A stretch of 64,000 bases of DNA, taken from assembly GCF_020687745.1 (NCBI RefSeq), contig NZ_JAJEWK010000006.1, forward strand, positions 124,001 through 188,000, in the 5' to 3' direction. A program made the position numbers and the translations under genes. The notes under the pieces were generated by a model. It worked only from the letters and a program-made list of their open reading frames with translations, was not told the origin of the DNA and ran no database searches. Source of the DNA: Chryseobacterium sp. MFBS3-17. Lineage in GTDB: Bacteria > Bacteroidota > Bacteroidia > Flavobacteriales > Weeksellaceae. Below are positions 21,295 through 40,435 of the stretch, one piece after another (the stretch's first letter is position 1; every line of letters starts with the position of its first letter).

Positions 21295-21320
21295 CTTTTT
21301 ACCCTTAAAATTTTTTTAAC

Positions 21321-34154: not shown

Positions 34155-34538
34155 TTACCTCGCTGCAATGGCAATTTTTACGGGCATTACATAAGTGTAC
34201 GGAAGTTCGCGCTCGTCATCAAAACGGTACATCAGTCCGGTAAGGATGGAGGTAAGTTCCTCACGGATGAGTTTGCATTTTCCTTCGGCATGTACATTGG
34301 TTATTTTTCCGTCTTTGCTTACGTTAAATTTAACCAGATTATCAGTGATGCCTTCTGCCATACCATCCTGAGTATAGTCAAACTGTGCAGCAATCAGTTG
34401 TCTGAGGTCTGCAAAGCCATCGTTCTGATAAATCTGAACCTCCTGAATCAGGTTTTTCTGTTGTGCATTGAGGTTGGTAAGTCCCATAAGCAGCATAACT
34501 GCGAGGGCTCCAAGGGTTTTTATGGCTGAATTTTTCAT
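34155..34538 (-). CDS. Secreted protein with TonB C-terminal-like fold
   Basis: This 127-residue periplasmic protein has a signal peptide ending in NLNAQQ (about residue 27). The second half, VKFNVSKDGKITNVHAEGKC followed by a helix (REELTSILTGLMYRF) and PYTYVMPVKIAIAAR, has the strand-helix-strand order and the P-Y-x-x-x-P-V signature of TonB C-terminal domains. It lacks the TonB membrane anchor and Pro-rich linker. Whether it touches TonB-dependent receptors is unknown, but such genes are near (34728-38468). Single gene. Confidence 0.65.
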   Translation of the reverse strand: MKNSAIKTLGALAVMLLMGLTNLNAQQKNLIQEVQIYQNDGFADLRQLIAAQFDYTQDGMAEGITDNLVKFNVSKDGKITNVHAEGKCKLIREELTSILTGLMYRFDDERELPYTYVMPVKIAIAAR

Positions 34539-34663
34539 GTGATGTTTGTTAAAGGTTTAATAAATTATATTGAATATAAGAACAAATGTAATGAATTTAC
34601 ATTGAATTAACAAACTGTTCACATTAAGTTAACATTGGAAATTTCTATATCAACAATCGTTAC

Positions 34664-34690
34664 AAAAAAGCACCGGATTTCTCCGGCGCT
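34664..34690 (-). terminator. Terminator of the beta-helix lipoprotein gene
   Basis: A 9-bp stem (34669-34677 with 34682-34690, one G-U pair) with a GAAA tetraloop is followed by six Ts on the minus strand. Confidence 0.8.
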
Positions 34691-34727: not shown

Positions 34728-35888
34728 TTAGAAGATTCCGGACCATCCTGTTGCCCAAGATGGCAGGCTAACTCCTTCTCCGGCACCGGTAGCAGCTGCA
34801 TTTTCTGTAAAGGTATTCGGAAGCACAGCTACAGAAGCGCCTGCAGAATTCTTCGCAGAAGCCTGGTTGGTCACATTGATGAATCTTACATTGTTGATTT
34901 TTCCACCACCGTTAAAATAGTTTACGGTTGCATCATGCTCCAGGTTGATTCCTGTAGTCCATCCTGAAAGTACGATATTGTCAAAGTTTCCGTGAGATCC
35001 TACGCGGATTTTCATCCCGTCTGCTTCACCTGTGGTAGCTCCAATGAATGTTGCATTCTTGATGGTTGGGTTGGATCTTGGATTGGCATCGTTGTCATTG
35101 GAATTATTGTCAGCTTCAATTCCTCTGTTTCCGGTATTGTCTGCTCTTCTTTTGGTATAGATTCCGCTTACGGTTCCGTTCCATCCTTCAGTCCAGTCGA
35201 ATGCATCATCTTCGTTTCCTACAGATACAATATTGGTAGCGTTTACTGTTCCACCGAAGAATTCAATTCCGTCATCAGATCCGTTTACCAGGGCCACGTT
35301 GTTGATTACGGTTCCGTTTCCTACTCCGAACAGAGAAAGACCATTAAATTCTTTGTCTGCAGTGAAGATGGCACCGGCATATTCCACTCTCAGGAATTCC
35401 AGTTTTCCGGAGTTGTCATCCACAATGTTTCCACCATATGTAGCATTACCCACTTCAGAAGAAGCGGTAGTTCCTTTGTTGATCGGTGCACGTCCGCAGA
35501 TTACCAAACCGCCCCATGCTCCCGGAGTTGCATTGGTAGCTGTCATTACTACAGGTGCAGATGCGGTACCGTTTACAAAGATCTGTCCGCCTTGTTCTAC
35601 GGTGATGAACGCCGAAGTTCCGCCTGTAGCTTCAATTCTGGTTCCTGCAGGAATAATCAGTTTACCGCCGTTTTTTACAGAAAGAGCACCGGTAAGTTTA
35701 TACACTTTGGCAGGGTCTAATGTAAGGGTAGTTCCGTTGGTAATGTCTCCCTTGAAGTTTGCAGGGTCAAAAGTTCCGTTGGGTGTTTCAATGATCGGGT
35801 CGTCTGTACTTCCGCAAGATTGTACGGTGAAAACTGTAGTAGCTACTGTTAATGCTAATGCCAATACTTTCAGTTGGTTCTTTTTCAT
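34728..35888 (-). CDS. Beta-helix lipoprotein, partner of the TonB-dependent receptor
   Basis: This predicted surface lipoprotein has 386 residues. The signal peptide ends VQSC (C25), and the mature start CGSTDDP is acidic, which in Flavobacteriia is compatible with outer-surface export. The rest is glycine/asparagine-rich with regularly repeated short strands (GGKLIIPAGTRIEA, GGQIFVNGTAS, GDDGIEFFGGTVNATNI), the look of a right-handed parallel beta-helix. It contains no T9SS domain and no recognisable catalytic set. It lies 39 bp downstream of a TonB-dependent receptor, in the place where SusD-like partners usually sit, suggesting a ligand-capture role (inference). Confidence 0.75.
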   Translation of the reverse strand: MKKNQLKVLALALTVATTVFTVQSCGSTDDPIIETPNGTFDPANFKGDITNGTTLTLDPAKVYKLTGALSVKNGGKLIIPAGTRIEATGGTSAFITVEQGGQIFVNGTASAPVVMTATNATPGAWGGLVICGRAPINKGTTASSEVGNATYGGNIVDDNSGKLEFLRVEYAGAIFTADKEFNGLSLFGVGNGTVINNVALVNGSDDGIEFFGGTVNATNIVSVGNEDDAFDWTEGWNGTVSGIYTKRRADNTGNRGIEADNNSNDNDANPRSNPTIKNATFIGATTGEADGMKIRVGSHGNFDNIVLSGWTTGINLEHDATVNYFNGGGKINNVRFINVTNQASAKNSAGASVAVLPNTFTENAAATGAGEGVSLPSWATGWSGIF

Positions 35889-35927
35889 AATTCAATTTTT
35901 AGATTGTTAATTAGATTTATTTTAGTG

Positions 35928-38468
35928 TTAAAATTCATAAGAAAAGCCGAGTCCGGCATTCAGTCCTTTTTTATATTGTTTTACAATGACATCGCCATTG
36001 GTGTTTTGCTGTGTTCTGGTAAAGCTGGGATTCAGCAGGTTTTTACCGCTTACGGAAATGCCCAGTCCGTTGCTCAGTTTATAGCGGAAGGTCGCATCCA
36101 GCAGGTTGATGGCTTCATCTACCAGATTTCCCTTGCTGTCATATCCCAGTGCGTAGATGTTATCTGAAATATGGGAATAAGACATCACGAAGTCTATAGA
36201 ATTGCGGTCCCATTTCTGCTCCCAGCCCAGGTTGATGTTGGCCAGGAAGTCTGATGCGCCCTGCATTTTGTCTTCGGATTTAATGAAGGATACAGATACC
36301 TGGGAGTTCGGGTTCTCATTCAGGACTTTGTCTGCATCCAGCTTCTGGCTCGTATTGAGGTAGGTGGCGTTCAGGAAGGTGTAGATTCTGGAATTTCCGG
36401 CGTTATACAGGTCTTTTCTGATTTCTGCTTCCACACCATAGATCGCCCCGGAGTCGCCTGCGTTTACAAAGGATACTGTATTGGCAGATGAATTCACGGT
36501 GACTCTGGATATAGGATTCTGGATGTATTTCCCAAAAGCGGTAATGGAGATGAGTTCATTCCTTTTCGGGAACCATTCCCATTTCAGGTCTGCATTATAG
36601 TTGTCTGAAGGATTCAGATCCACGTTTCCGAAACTTGCTTCGTCTACTTCTTCATATTCAAACGGTGCCAGTTCCAGCAGCAGCGGTGTCGTATAGGTCT
36701 TGGATGCGGAAAATCTGAAGTTCTGGCGGTCATTCAGGCTGTATTTCATATTCAGCGCCGGCAGAATTTTGGCATAGGACTTTTCTACTTTTCCACTTTT
36801 AATATTGGTGTCGTAGAGAATGTTCTGCTTCAGGTGATCATATCTCACACCCAACTGAGCCGTGAAACGGTCGCCTGCTTTATAGTCCACATTGGCAAAT
36901 CCCGCATGATTGTTTACTTCAGATTCATAATACATGGGATTAAGGGCCATGGCATCCGATCCTACGATACCGCGGAAGGTTCTGATGTCAAAGAATGACC
37001 CTGACTGGTAATTCTGATAATTGAAGAATGTTCCGTAGTCATCCGGCGTTACGAAATAGTTGCCCTGCGCCAGTTTTACGCGGAAGTTGTATTGTGTGGC
37101 TTTGAAATCTGAATTTTTATAGCGTCCCTGGTAGCCAAGGGTGACTTTAAACTGATCATTGATCTGGTAATCTCCGTGAAGGTCGCCCACGAAGTCATTT
37201 TCCAGGAGCTGGTCATAATATCTGTGGTTAGCCCCCGCGTTACTCGCTACAAAGTGGTGGATACCGGTCTGGTTATTGTATACAGAGATATTCTGCTGTC
37301 GGTCTGGTCTGCGGCTGTCCAGTCTGTTGTAGCCGGCGTTCCAGTACAGTGTGAAAGGATCAGAAATGCTGTGTTCGCCGCTCAGCTGGTTGATCCAGAG
37401 GTCATTGGTTTTATAACCTGCCCGGCGCAGAAATGCAGTTTCATTTTCTCGGTCTTCATTGGTATCGCGTACATAGCCTTCAAAGAAGGTGAGTTTTTGC
37501 TCGGTAGTATGAATGAAATTGGTGGTGGCCTTTACCGTATGATTTGGGTTGATGCGGTAGTTCAGGTTCAGCAATCCTGTACTATTGGTATCATACGAGT
37601 ATTCCTGTACATAAAGGTCCTTTAACAAAGATCCGCCACTGTCTGCCGAACGTACCGGTCCTTCCACGAAATTATAGTCATTGTCAAAGCTTCCGAATCC
37701 GAACAAGCTCAGTTTTCCCTGCTCACCAACGTTAAAGCTGCGTCCGAAGTCTATTCCCAGCGAAGAATTGATGGGCGTATTCACATCTTCATTTCTCCAT
37801 GTGGTAGGGAAGGCGTAGCCGTATTGTGCAATGGCTGCATTAGATGGCTTGTTAATCTGTTTTGATCCTAAAAAGTTGGGACCGTTTTGCAGATAGAAAT
37901 TGGGTTTCTGAAACGCATTGAAATTTACAGAAGATCCCAGATTTACTTTGAAATAAGGTTTTCCGGTATATACCTTGGATACAATATTGACATTGGCTCC
38001 GGACATATCTCCCCACAGGTTAGGGTTGTACACTTTTTCCAGACCTACATAGTCTATCATATCTGTTTTAATGATACTGAGGTCTATATTTTTAAAGAGG
38101 GGATCATTAGACGGAATCGGAAGCCCGTTCATGGTAGTAGAGTTGCTGCGGTCTCCCAGTCCGCGGATGAATACCTGGCCGCTGCCTTCTTGTTTCTGGG
38201 CGCCTGTGGCCTTGGTTACGGCTACGGAAACATCGCCCACACCTTGTTTTTCCAGTTGTACAGAACCTACACGTTCTATGACTTCTACCGCTCTGCGCTG
38301 CAGGCTGATGATGTTGCTTTCTGAACCCTTATTGGTACTTCCCTGCAGAACCACACCTTCTATTACTTTCTCTTTCTTGATGGTGTCCTGGTCTGTGGTT
38401 TGCGAGTAAAACATTGATGTTGAGCCTGTTAAAAACAACACGGCAATGCTTAATTTCGTTCTTTTCAT
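35928..38468 (-). CDS. TonB-dependent receptor of the two-component-linked locus
   Basis: This outer-membrane receptor has 846 residues. A signal peptide (KRTKLSIAVLFLTGSTSMFYSQ) is followed by a short segment KVIEGVVLQGS, a plug domain (about 60-170, with GQVFIRGLGDRSNSTTMNGL) and a large barrel ending GLGFSYEF. It lacks the N-terminal carboxypeptidase-like domain of SusC proteins. The partner lipoprotein is downstream. Divergent to it are a response regulator and a histidine kinase, and the 192-bp gap between them contains a repeat like a Pho box. The substrate is unknown; a phosphate-containing ligand is a hypothesis. Confidence 0.88.
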   Translation of the reverse strand: MKRTKLSIAVLFLTGSTSMFYSQTTDQDTIKKEKVIEGVVLQGSTNKGSESNIISLQRRAVEVIERVGSVQLEKQGVGDVSVAVTKATGAQKQEGSGQVFIRGLGDRSNSTTMNGLPIPSNDPLFKNIDLSIIKTDMIDYVGLEKVYNPNLWGDMSGANVNIVSKVYTGKPYFKVNLGSSVNFNAFQKPNFYLQNGPNFLGSKQINKPSNAAIAQYGYAFPTTWRNEDVNTPINSSLGIDFGRSFNVGEQGKLSLFGFGSFDNDYNFVEGPVRSADSGGSLLKDLYVQEYSYDTNSTGLLNLNYRINPNHTVKATTNFIHTTEQKLTFFEGYVRDTNEDRENETAFLRRAGYKTNDLWINQLSGEHSISDPFTLYWNAGYNRLDSRRPDRQQNISVYNNQTGIHHFVASNAGANHRYYDQLLENDFVGDLHGDYQINDQFKVTLGYQGRYKNSDFKATQYNFRVKLAQGNYFVTPDDYGTFFNYQNYQSGSFFDIRTFRGIVGSDAMALNPMYYESEVNNHAGFANVDYKAGDRFTAQLGVRYDHLKQNILYDTNIKSGKVEKSYAKILPALNMKYSLNDRQNFRFSASKTYTTPLLLELAPFEYEEVDEASFGNVDLNPSDNYNADLKWEWFPKRNELISITAFGKYIQNPISRVTVNSSANTVSFVNAGDSGAIYGVEAEIRKDLYNAGNSRIYTFLNATYLNTSQKLDADKVLNENPNSQVSVSFIKSEDKMQGASDFLANINLGWEQKWDRNSIDFVMSYSHISDNIYALGYDSKGNLVDEAINLLDATFRYKLSNGLGISVSGKNLLNPSFTRTQQNTNGDVIVKQYKKGLNAGLGFSYEF

Positions 38469-38535
38469 TACTTTTCTTTGCTTGATTTCTTTCAGTGCAA
38501 AGGTTGGAAGATTGGCTGTAATTGCTGTTTCGGGA

Positions 38536-38553
38536 GTTTTAATTTTGTTTTAA
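38536..38553. promoter_or_regulatory. Candidate operator: direct repeat GTTTTAA-N4-GTTTTAA
   Basis: Two identical 7-mers start exactly 11 bp apart (38536 and 38547), the spacing of PhoB-type half-sites recognised by OmpR-family regulators. It sits 68-85 bp upstream of the TonB receptor start and 108-125 bp upstream of the divergent OmpR-family regulator gene. The sequence is AT-rich, so chance occurrence cannot be excluded. Confidence 0.5.
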
Positions 38554-38660
38554 CTTTAAATGAACCAATCACGCCGTATATTAAGTTTATGTAAATAATC
38601 TGTTCTATGCAGTGCAATGCATTAATTTTCCTTAATTTTGAAAGGATATTCATATAGATA

Positions 38661-39338
38661 ATGACTGGTAAGAAAATTTTATTGATTGATGATGAACAGG
38701 ATATTCTGGAAATCCTGTCCTACAATTTGGAAAAAGAAGGGTATGAAGTGCATACCGCAAATAACGGTAATGACGGCATTAAACTGGCAAAGGAAATCAT
38801 TCCGGATTTGATTTTGCTGGACGTGATGATGCCCGAAAAAGACGGTATAGAAACCTGCCAGGAAATGAGGCAAAGCAAATCCCTGCAAAAAACCCTCATT
38901 GTATTCCTTTCGGCCAGAAGCGAAGAGTTTTCCCAGCTTGCAGGCTATCAGGCCGGTGGCAATGATTATATTGTAAAGGTCATCAAGCCGAAAGTGCTCA
39001 TCTCTAAGGTAAATGCCTTGCTGCAATTGACATCTCAGGTCAATGACAGTTCCAAACTGATTGAAATAGGAGACCTTATTATAGACCGGGATAATTTTAA
39101 AGTATCCAAGAACGGACAGCCGTTCCTGCTCCCCAAGAAAGAATTTGATTTGCTGTATCTGCTGGCATCTAATACTGACAAAGTGTTTAAAAGAGAAGAA
39201 ATTCTGGAGAAAGTCTGGGGAAATGATGTGATTGTGGGTGAAAGAACCATAGATGTCCACATCCGGAGGCTTCGGGAAAAACTGGGCATTAACGCCATAC
39301 AAACCCTGAAGGGAATTGGTTACAAACTCATTGTTTAA
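38661..39338 (+). CDS. OmpR-family response regulator (PhoB-like)
   Basis: This is a transcription factor of 225 residues. The receiver domain (5-120) has the acidic pocket in LIDDEQD and the phospho-acceptor Asp in LILLDVMMPEKDG (D54). The conserved Lys is in NDYIVKVIKP, where the residue after Lys is Val instead of the near-invariant Pro. The C-terminal winged helix (about 130-225) ends EKVWGNDVIVGERTIDVHIR with the recognition helix. Its kinase is 32 bp downstream. PhoB/PhoR-like is the best family name; phosphate as the signal is inference. Confidence 0.88.
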   Translation: MTGKKILLIDDEQDILEILSYNLEKEGYEVHTANNGNDGIKLAKEIIPDLILLDVMMPEKDGIETCQEMRQSKSLQKTLIVFLSARSEEFSQLAGYQAGGNDYIVKVIKPKVLISKVNALLQLTSQVNDSSKLIEIGDLIIDRDNFKVSKNGQPFLLPKKEFDLLYLLASNTDKVFKREEILEKVWGNDVIVGERTIDVHIRRLREKLGINAIQTLKGIGYKLIV

Positions 39339-39370
39339 GGACATATCTTCATTAACAGAAAATACATCCT

Positions 39371-40435
39371 TTGAAATTTCAGATTCTTAGTTTCCTGGCC
39401 TCACTGTTCATTACAGTGTTGATGATTCTGGTGGTTATGATTTTTAACATATCACAGGAACATCTGCGTACCAATACCCTTACCTTTTATTTTGCTGTCG
39501 GGTTTGCTGTACTCATTATGCTGGTGGTCAATTATTTCGTGCTGGAGTACCTCCTTGGCTATTACAAAAGAAAACAGATCCGCCACATCAGTACACGGCT
39601 GCCGGATGAGGTAATGCCGGTAGATGAAAGCGCCATGAGCTTCAGTCAGCTGGGTGAGATTGTTTCTGAACTGTCTCAGAAAAACGCCATAGAAATCGAT
39701 ACCATGAAGGACATGGAGACTTACCGGAAGGAATACATTGGCAATATCTCTCACGAACTGAAGACGCCCCTGTTTTCCATTCAGGGGTATGTGGAAACAC
39801 TGCTGGACGGCGGGGTAGAGAATCTGGCCATCCGGGACAAGTATCTGGAACGCATTGATAAGTCGGTAGAGCGGTTGCTGGATATTGTGAAAGATCTGGA
39901 TATGCTGAATCAGTTCGAAACTGGTGAAATCAGCCTCCATATTTCCAGGTTCGACATCAACGCGCTGGTGCGGGAAATTATGGATATGCTGGAAATGGAT
40001 GCCGAGCGCAGCGGTGCAAAACTGCAGTTACAGACCACCCACCAAATGCTTTTTGTGAATGCCGACGTGCAGAAAATAGCGCAGGTACTCATTAACCTTA
40101 TTTCCAATGCCATCCATTATTCCAACCGGGACCATGCGCAGATCACCGTAAAAACAAGTGTGCTTCGCCGGAAAGTGCTGGTGGAAGTCATCGATAACGG
40201 AATGGGCATCAAGGCAGAAGTTCTGCCCAGAATTTTCGAACGTTTTTACCGGGTAGAAACCTCACGCAGCAGGAGGGAAGGTGGCTCCGGTCTGGGACTG
40301 TCTATTGTGAAGCATATTCTGGAAGCTCATAATGAAACCATTATCGTAAACAGCGTCTATCTGGAAGGAACTACCTTCTCTTTTATGCTGGAAAAACATG
40401 CAAGCCAGGCGGGCAATTTAGCAAAAACTTTTTAA
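39371..40435 (+). CDS. Sensor histidine kinase (PhoR-like)
   Basis: This membrane kinase of 354 residues is the partner of the preceding regulator. Two transmembrane helices (about 5-25 and 38-62) leave only a very short extracytoplasmic loop, so it is unlikely to bind a periplasmic ligand directly, a PhoR-like design. The H box is YIGNISHELKTPLFSIQGYV (His about 129). The ATPase domain has N (NLISNAIHYSN), G1 (VIDNGMGI), F (IFERFYRV) and G2 (GGSGLGLSIVK). The start is TTG at 39371; no ATG or GTG fits. Confidence 0.88.
   Translation: MKFQILSFLASLFITVLMILVVMIFNISQEHLRTNTLTFYFAVGFAVLIMLVVNYFVLEYLLGYYKRKQIRHISTRLPDEVMPVDESAMSFSQLGEIVSELSQKNAIEIDTMKDMETYRKEYIGNISHELKTPLFSIQGYVETLLDGGVENLAIRDKYLERIDKSVERLLDIVKDLDMLNQFETGEISLHISRFDINALVREIMDMLEMDAERSGAKLQLQTTHQMLFVNADVQKIAQVLINLISNAIHYSNRDHAQITVKTSVLRRKVLVEVIDNGMGIKAEVLPRIFERFYRVETSRSRREGGSGLGLSIVKHILEAHNETIIVNSVYLEGTTFSFMLEKHASQAGNLAKTF

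Follow-up and report, generated by a model that had tools for sequence, protein, structure and literature searches.

A TonB-dependent transporter and a predicted beta-helix lipoprotein beside a PhoB-like regulator in Chryseobacterium sp. MFBS3-17: a probable phosphate-starvation uptake locus

A 64,000-nucleotide stretch of Chryseobacterium sp. MFBS3-17 (contig NZ_JAJEWK010000006.1, positions 124,001 to 188,000; hereafter the window) carries a TonB-dependent transporter (TBDT) gene followed by a surface lipoprotein gene, divergent from genes for an OmpR/PhoB-like response regulator and a PhoR-like histidine kinase (Table 1). This locus is probably a phosphate-starvation uptake unit of a Weeksellaceae type, in which the regulator would act on promoter repeats and the TBDT and lipoprotein would act as a pair. 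An earlier note on this DNA had guessed at a role under phosphate limitation. The guess was for the most part correct, and most of it is already in print for a relative: the same four-gene order is strongly induced by phosphate (Pi) depletion in Flavobacterium johnsoniae, where it is called PUSIV, so that gene order and phosphate response are already known from there (PMC8115612). The related lipoproteins FI, FII and FIII of Flavobacterium and ElpS of Caulobacter are strongly induced in Pi-starved cells (PMC8115612, PMC2996285). The phosphate link also comes from an Alteromonas plasmid on which genes annotated as PhoB, PhoR and a phosphate-binding protein lie beside a homologous pair.

The positions of the four open reading frames (ORFs) match the span of 34728 to 40435 given in the earlier note, which had also described a TBDT lacking the SusC-type N-terminal domain and a kinase nearly free of sensor; both descriptions hold. 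By Pfam, the TBDT comprises a plug (PF07715, 30 bits against a cut-off of 23.9) and a TonB_dep_Rec barrel (PF00593, 97.9 against 27 bits) and has no CarboxypepD_reg domain. An N-terminal PF13715/PF13620 domain is present in five of seven relatives' TBDTs scanned, all of them longer (899-956 aa), and absent from the shorter two (832 and 871 aa). TBDT lengths across all loci split into two groups, so CarboxypepD_reg seems to have been lost from the TBDTs of the window's group. The kinase (HisKA and HATPase) has two hydrophobic segments separated, by eye, by a loop of about 10 residues, and its Pfam matches include no PAS and no periplasmic domain. The regulator consists of receiver and winged-helix domains and tops the ranking of its own genome by NF053854, the Bacteroidota PhoB model, at 195.4 bits, the runner-up reaching 169.4. 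A PstS-PstC-PstA-PstB operon is present elsewhere in the genome; no phoU was seen among the listed ORFs of at least 150 aa around it, with no model search made for the gene, and no match to PF07396 was found in the genome for the OprP-type porin that lies beside PhoBR in F. johnsoniae.

Conservation of this arrangement was assessed in 140 loci, either hand-picked along the ranking (40 from the family and 20 from the order) or best-ranked (the best 80 named loci of a genome-collection scan), to all of which a single classification rule was applied. The lipoprotein is present in 183 of 197 sampled family genomes, indicating that the arrangement is not chance, and a profile search found it in 142 of 246 order genomes. 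It lies directly behind a TBDT in 134 of the 140 loci (40/40 family, 19/20 order and 75 of the best 80 named); the five exceptions among the named loci are at contig ends (L180, L181, L218) or have longer gaps (L184, L187). All four genes occur together in 30 of the 40 hand-picked family loci, in keeping with the conservation check named in the earlier note, and also in 15/20 order loci and 24 of the best 80 named loci. A regulator without a kinase in range was met in one family, no order and three of the best 80 named loci, and lipoprotein and TBDT only, within the fetched stretch, in 48 of the latter. The regulator is not adjacent in nine of the 40 family loci; eight of these nine genomes carry an 80-85% identical regulator elsewhere, while the closest regulator of the ninth (G070) is only 38% identical and no ortholog. 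In many Flavobacteriales the genes divergent from the pair encode an OmpR-type regulator and a kinase poor in sensor sequence. The PUSIV-type order was found in the window, in six presumed Flavobacterium loci (L149-L154) and in named Flavobacterium loci such as L175, L177 and L178. As a side observation, some loci have a second beta-helix lipoprotein copy, tandem or fused, behind one TBDT (L196, L198, L200, L054, L055, L070), and in Chryseobacterium sp. Leaf201 (L170) there are two lipoproteins that differ in type.

Relatives of the lipoprotein also occur in 21 plasmid records, and in all four of those opened (Aureibacter, Indioceanicola, Pseudoalteromonas, Alteromonas) the lipoprotein-like gene adjoins a TBDT. 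The Indioceanicola order is lipoprotein-like gene, TBDT and then type II secretion (gsp) genes, comparable to Caulobacter cc0170-cc0171. The Indioceanicola protein, of 956 aa with two domain copies, is 40% identical to the window lipoprotein over 259 columns and keeps the motifs DDGIE, DDxxDWTxGW and RGIEADN, and the TBDTs are 22-23% identical over most of their length. On Alteromonas macleodii pBGP9 (L267), the annotated order is phoB, phoR, phosphate ABC (ATP-binding cassette) transporter substrate-binding protein, oxygenase, lipoprotein-like gene and TBDT.

The lipoprotein has no Pfam match near the cut-off and no NCBIfam match, and therefore no SusD domain; with a model that is nearly all-beta, it does not belong to SusD/RagB. 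This model, built from 53 sequences (the window and 52 relatives from named records), has a mean predicted local distance difference test score (pLDDT) of 91.0 and a predicted template modelling score (pTM) of 0.87, and consists almost wholly of strands. VIA re-alignment of Foldseek candidates matched NosD, AlgG and AlgE4 at Z scores of about 23 across 261-276 residues, and an exopolygalacturonase at 21.4 across 260 residues. Since Foldseek alone returned nothing at an E value of 0.001, the fold assignment depends on the model together with this re-alignment; a sequence search of the PDB gave chance-level matches only. Taken together, a right-handed beta-helix, in line with the beta-helix predicted in the earlier note, is well supported as a modelled fold, which by itself would imply no function.

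In the 53-sequence alignment, 13 columns are more than 90% acidic (E145, D158, E169, E180, D205, D206, E209, D227, D228, D231, E234, E258 and D260), and C25 and 27 other columns, including D206, D227 and D228, are invariant. Because the pairs D205/D206 and D227/D228 are 22 residues apart and each immediately precedes a strand in the model, they may belong to a stacked acidic ladder along one edge of the predicted beta-helix. In Bacteroidota, acidic residues after the lipoprotein cysteine serve as a surface-export signal. At least two acidic residues stand within the seven positions after the cysteine in 45/53 sequences, in agreement with this signal. With its lipobox cysteine and a homologous predicted beta-helix domain bearing conserved DD motifs, the window protein is a likely member of the ElpS/FII family.

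Comparison of identities between loci suggests that TBDT and lipoprotein have been swapped between species as a unit while the regulator was retained, and this appears to have happened even within the window's genus. In the 69 of 141 loci with a divergent regulator and a lipoprotein shorter than 460 aa, Spearman correlations of identities were 0.904 for lipoprotein and TBDT and 0.887 for regulator and kinase, as against 0.203 for lipoprotein and regulator and 0.365 for TBDT and regulator. Among 522 locus pairs with regulators more than 80% identical, pairs that are not independent of one another, TBDT and lipoprotein were both at least 50% identical in 277, and a TBDT below 38% came together with a lipoprotein below 45% in 184. 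A TBDT below 38% with a lipoprotein of at least 50% occurred in none, a TBDT of at least 50% with a lipoprotein below 45% in five, and 56 pairs were intermediate. The clearest case is a congener (G035, locus L044) whose regulator and hemL are 91% and 87% identical to those of the window and whose TBDT and lipoprotein are 29% and 37% identical. In hemL and the regulator, DNA identity to this locus lies mostly at 0.72-0.86, and between about 34.0 and 38.3 kb it falls to about 0.2-0.6; for another congener (G004, L053) it is near 0.7 throughout lipoprotein and TBDT. The small gene behind the lipoprotein (Table 1) has no match in L044 and so goes with the cassette in this comparison. Such joint exchange would be expected if the two proteins had a ligand or an interface in common.

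A further line of evidence is the DNA between the two operons. The TBDT-regulator intergenic regions of the window and 31 relatives (n=32) are rich in TTAA and TGAA units at 11-bp spacing. Pairs of TTAA 11 bp apart numbered 49, compared to 2.9 in dinucleotide shuffles, an excess that is not a probability because orthologous regions are not independent; at other spacings from 5 to 19 the maximum was 8, and spacings of 20, 22 and 31 gave 12, 21 and 25. With a final C, the 11-bp pairs are confined to the regulator's strand (10 vs 0). A weight matrix was built from these sites, and it cannot retest the 11-bp period because its seeds were chosen at that spacing. Five sites in the window score above 11.5: two are training sites in the regulator-TBDT intergenic region, the others lie behind the kinase (40445), at 21303 and, as the best (17.8) and outside the training set, before the small gene. 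TAnnTTTG is the -7 promoter element of Bacteroidota, and a sequence that fits it stands before the regulator (Table 1).

Genomes in which regulator and TBDT are unlinked allowed the two promoters to be scored separately. TBDT promoters scored 12.2-14.9 (8/8) and regulator promoters at least 14.3 in 6/7, the other scoring 9.8, while 2 of 82 control promoters reached 12, a cut set after the scores had been seen (Mann-Whitney against controls, p 2e-6 and 8e-6, with six of the eight genomes from the same genus). One regulator promoter (L264) was lost from this comparison and that of G070 (L265), which has no ortholog, was left out, the regulator start being not found in the former and not sought in the latter. 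Most unlinked regulators keep a repeat of the box 2 type at about -80 and the TBDTs carry their own repeats; because each keeps repeats where unlinked, we take box 2 as belonging with the regulator and box 1 with the TBDT. In G070, a single genome, the TBDT promoter has no repeat (5.7). The link drawn in the earlier note between the pair and the adjacent regulator thus gains from 11-bp repeats that appear in both promoters and are kept where the operons separate.

Other phosphate genes were scanned with the same matrix, with L094 left out. A site of at least 12 near the gene start was present in one of 14 PstS-like loci (L082, 12.9), and two of seven alkaline phosphatase loci have a site about 0.2 kb before the start (L097, 12.5; L099, 14.0); the alkaline phosphatase copy of the window's own genome (L098) scores below 8 despite an exact match to the pattern. 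Eight exact matches occur in that genome: one before the small gene, one before alkaline phosphatase and the other six in front of or inside genes that are unrelated or hard to interpret. The match at the alkaline phosphatase gene (C2:23709-23726, L121; PF00245) lies 35-52 bp upstream of the ATG and, by eye, is not clearly shared by orthologs. Genome-wide prediction of a regulon from the motif was uninformative, as the pattern with at most one mismatch gave 82 matches against 74 for a reversed control. A literature search for a Bacteroidota Pho box turned up only putative ones, predicted near plcP clusters of marine bacteria, with one flavobacterium among the strains (PMC4796936).

Given these features, we propose a working model of the locus. 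Having almost no sensor of its own, the PhoR-like kinase would probably depend on partners, for instance the PstSCAB transporter, to read phosphate status, and the PhoB-like regulator would act on the 11-bp repeats of the shared intergenic region, with box 2 serving autoregulation and box 1 switching on the divergent operon. The products of that operon, the TBDT and the surface lipoprotein, would work together: the lipoprotein may gather a phosphorus-bearing ligand at the surface, perhaps via a metal held by its acidic residues, and pass it to the TBDT for TonB-driven import. It is likely that the TBDT is of a PhoB-type kind, induced by phosphate starvation, and has a beta-helix partner; a role of that partner as a ligand-gathering lid like XusB or BtuG is somewhat less likely. 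More tentatively, and with considerable doubt, receptor and lipoprotein could be one specificity cassette for modular phosphorus uptake behind a fixed PhoB-controlled promoter, the carboxylate ladder binding metal and giving a cation-bridged grip on phosphorylated ligands.

Several points weigh against this proposal. Regulator and kinase come nearest to PhoB and to PnpS/PhoR in NCBIfam but stay below the curated cut-offs (TIGR02154, 204 vs 296.2 bits; NF053854, 195.9 vs 270; PnpS, 245.9 vs 400; PhoR, 223.5 vs 334.2). The repeat pattern has no genome-wide excess over its control, and the region upstream of pstSCAB has no clear repeat. Several Bacteroidales loci hold the pair with no PhoB-like regulator beside it, and that of Bacteroides fragilis Q1F2 (L219) has no divergent one within the fetched stretch. 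The putative orthology with Fjoh_0543-0546 rests on gene order and on other Flavobacterium species, and the link to CC0170 on gene order and on relatives. In Caulobacter, loss of elpS left phosphatase activity unchanged and ElpS is shed from the cell, and the neighbouring TBDT gene CC0171 was constitutive by reverse transcription PCR (RT-PCR) and dispensable for ElpS production, with data not shown there (PMC2996285).

In the main rival, the lipoprotein acts enzymatically or assists secreted phosphatases: as a surface beta-helix hydrolase or lyase it would free a phosphate-bearing fragment, and the TBDT would import the product. Many of its nearest folds are indeed carbohydrate-active beta-helices (AlgG, AlgE4, polygalacturonases), and its near-invariant acidic residues would repeat on successive coils of the model. 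The shedding of ElpS into the medium would suit such a role, ElpS overexpression raised supernatant alkaline phosphatase (PMC2996285), and the Flavobacterium authors proposed plant glycan binding or hydrolysis for FI-FIII (PMC8115612). However, neither refolded nor immunoprecipitated ElpS had phosphatase activity (PMC2996285), and the window lipoprotein matches no Pfam enzyme family. NosD, which comes first by VIA but too narrowly for a ranking, belongs to an ABC transporter complex, and in our judgement constant pairing with a TBDT would be unusual for a free enzyme. We regard an enzymatic or phosphatase-assisting role as rather unlikely.

Two other explanations concern the phosphate link and the repeats. 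If the 11-bp repeats were AT-rich noise or sites of another OmpR-family regulator, the adjacent regulator would not control the TBDT operon. The missing genome-wide excess fits this, and repeats of such a type are not specific, because in Riemerella a different regulator binds an ArcA-like TTTAACA motif (PMC9603813). This explanation is quite improbable, as unlinked genomes retain the repeats at both promoters, the sole genome without the regulator (G070) lacks them, and the window's best matrix match precedes the neighbouring small gene. The pair might also serve another nutrient (a metal, a glycan or a vitamin), phosphate regulation being an accident of local gene order in Flavobacteriales. 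The 48 of the best 80 named loci in which the fetched stretch shows no divergent PhoB-like regulator could be taken this way, and the cassette types differ widely (relatives' TBDTs are 26-75% identical to the window's), so their ligands may differ as well. This we hold to be very unlikely, since the phosphate link was met separately in F. johnsoniae, Caulobacter and the Alteromonas gene order, and the F. johnsoniae TBDT is among those reported to respond to Pi depletion alone when iron and nitrogen limitation served as controls (PMC8115612).

The small gene behind the lipoprotein moves with the cassette in some relatives, as judged from comparison of the loci: orthologs 40-52% identical stand behind the lipoprotein in 6/40 family loci, and the best matrix scores upstream of these six are 9.0-11.8. 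Its likeness to a TonB C-terminal domain is a weak hint, with a TonB_2 match in two of seven members (E 0.00065 at best) that do not include the window's own, and a profile E value of 0.15 against the PDB; a single-sequence structure model was useless (pLDDT 45.2).

Table 1. Features of the locus in window coordinates.
Feature	Position	Strand	Remark
Small exported protein, 127 aa, weak TonB C-terminal domain likeness	34155..34538	-	
Four 11-bp units upstream of the small gene; top score of the window, 17.8, at 34615-34634	34591..34634	-	not in training
Terminator-like hairpin and T run between lipoprotein and small protein	34664..34690	-	by eye
ElpS/FII-like surface lipoprotein, predicted right-handed beta-helix, 386 aa	34728..35888	-	lipobox ...VQSC
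TBDT, plug and barrel, no N-terminal CarboxypepD_reg, 846 aa	35928..38468	-	
Box 1, 11-bp units TTTTAATTTTG TTTTAACTTTA AATGAACCA	38537..38567	+	attributed to TBDT promoter from unlinked relatives
Box 2, a pair of 11-bp units TATTAAGTTTA TGTAAATAA, low-scoring (8.1)	38579..38598	+	attributed to regulator autoregulation
TAATTTTG before the regulator, fits TAnnTTTG	38633..38640	+	by eye
OmpR/PhoB-like response regulator, 225 aa	38661..39338	+	
PhoR/PnpS-like histidine kinase, 354 aa, TTG start, almost no sensor domain	39371..40435	+	

New in this analysis, as read from the sequences, are the direct repeats of 11 bp that lie ahead of both operons and persist in each promoter of separated pairs; the exchange of TBDT-lipoprotein cassettes behind a conserved regulator and the breadth of TBDT pairing; and the near-invariant acidic set on the predicted beta-helix. 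Pairing with TBDTs across Bacteroidota and Proteobacteria would recast FI, FII, FIII and ElpS, so far orphan exoproteins, as one half of what is likely a transport pair, and a candidate Pho-type operator would allow regulon prediction in Bacteroidota. Cassette exchange behind a fixed regulator would be a clean system for studying how surface receptors change specificity; if the modular reading is true, species may retune which organic phosphorus they take up while leaving the switch untouched.

The closest known system is PUSIV, which shares with the window the order of PhoR (Fjoh_0543), PhoB (Fjoh_0544), TBDT (Fjoh_0545) and the pectin-lyase-like lipoprotein FII (Fjoh_0546), and whose genes changed on Pi depletion by 0.76, 3.06, 8.02 and 9.91, respectively; we took these fold changes as log2, judging from the threshold in the text (PMC8115612). 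Fjoh_0545 is reported to carry the N-terminal PF13715 domain that the window TBDT lacks, and the terms Pho box and promoter do not occur in that paper. Relative to the six presumed Flavobacterium loci, the window shows identities of 39-46% for the kinase, 54-56% for the regulator, 40-42% for the TBDT and 48-51% for the lipoprotein. FI-FIII are 31-36% identical, at 50-54% coverage, to the Caulobacter low-Pi lipoprotein (PMC8115612). That protein, ElpS (CC0170) of Caulobacter crescentus, is a surface lipoprotein made on phosphate starvation and later cleaved and released, and its authors already took the co-occurrence of elpS and TBDT genes as a sign of interaction (PMC2996285); a further search of the literature on ElpS gave nothing beyond chance letter matches in reference lists. 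It resembles the window lipoprotein in its phosphate response and its TBDT neighbour, CC0171, and the window protein can be aligned with proteobacterial relatives that share this context. It differs in gene order (lipoprotein before TBDT, beside type II secretion genes), in proteolytic release and, in the Indioceanicola relative, in a longer protein.

PhoPR of Riemerella anatipestifer (RAYM_RS09735/09740) is an OmpR-type regulator with its kinase (PMC5399024), and its regulator binds a TTTAACA-type motif (PMC9603813). It was considered as a direct test of the window locus and rejected as a different, non-orthologous two-component system: in the presumed Riemerella comparison loci (L249, L250 and L251, from G066, G076 and G052) the regulator is about 91% identical to another OmpR-type regulator of the window's own genome (L253) and about 31% to the window regulator. 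These genomes are taken to be Riemerella because the published forward primer fits without mismatch in three of six; the reverse primer does so in one of those three. That the published PhoPR is, on these identities, a separate system is likewise new, and its label may mislead. SusCD and PusCD resemble the window in a TBDT gene paired with or followed by a surface lipoprotein gene, and differ in that the window lipoprotein has neither a SusD domain nor a helical fold and the window TBDT no SusC-type N-terminal domain. In BtuBG, which serves vitamin B12, BtuG is a non-SusD lipoprotein partner of the TBDT. XusAB likewise joins a TBDT to a non-SusD surface lipoprotein, XusB, a beta-propeller for siderophores. 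The window pair is set apart from both by its predicted beta-helix and its phosphate link, and by analogy the two systems are precedents for a non-SusD lipoprotein that may act as a lid on a TBDT.

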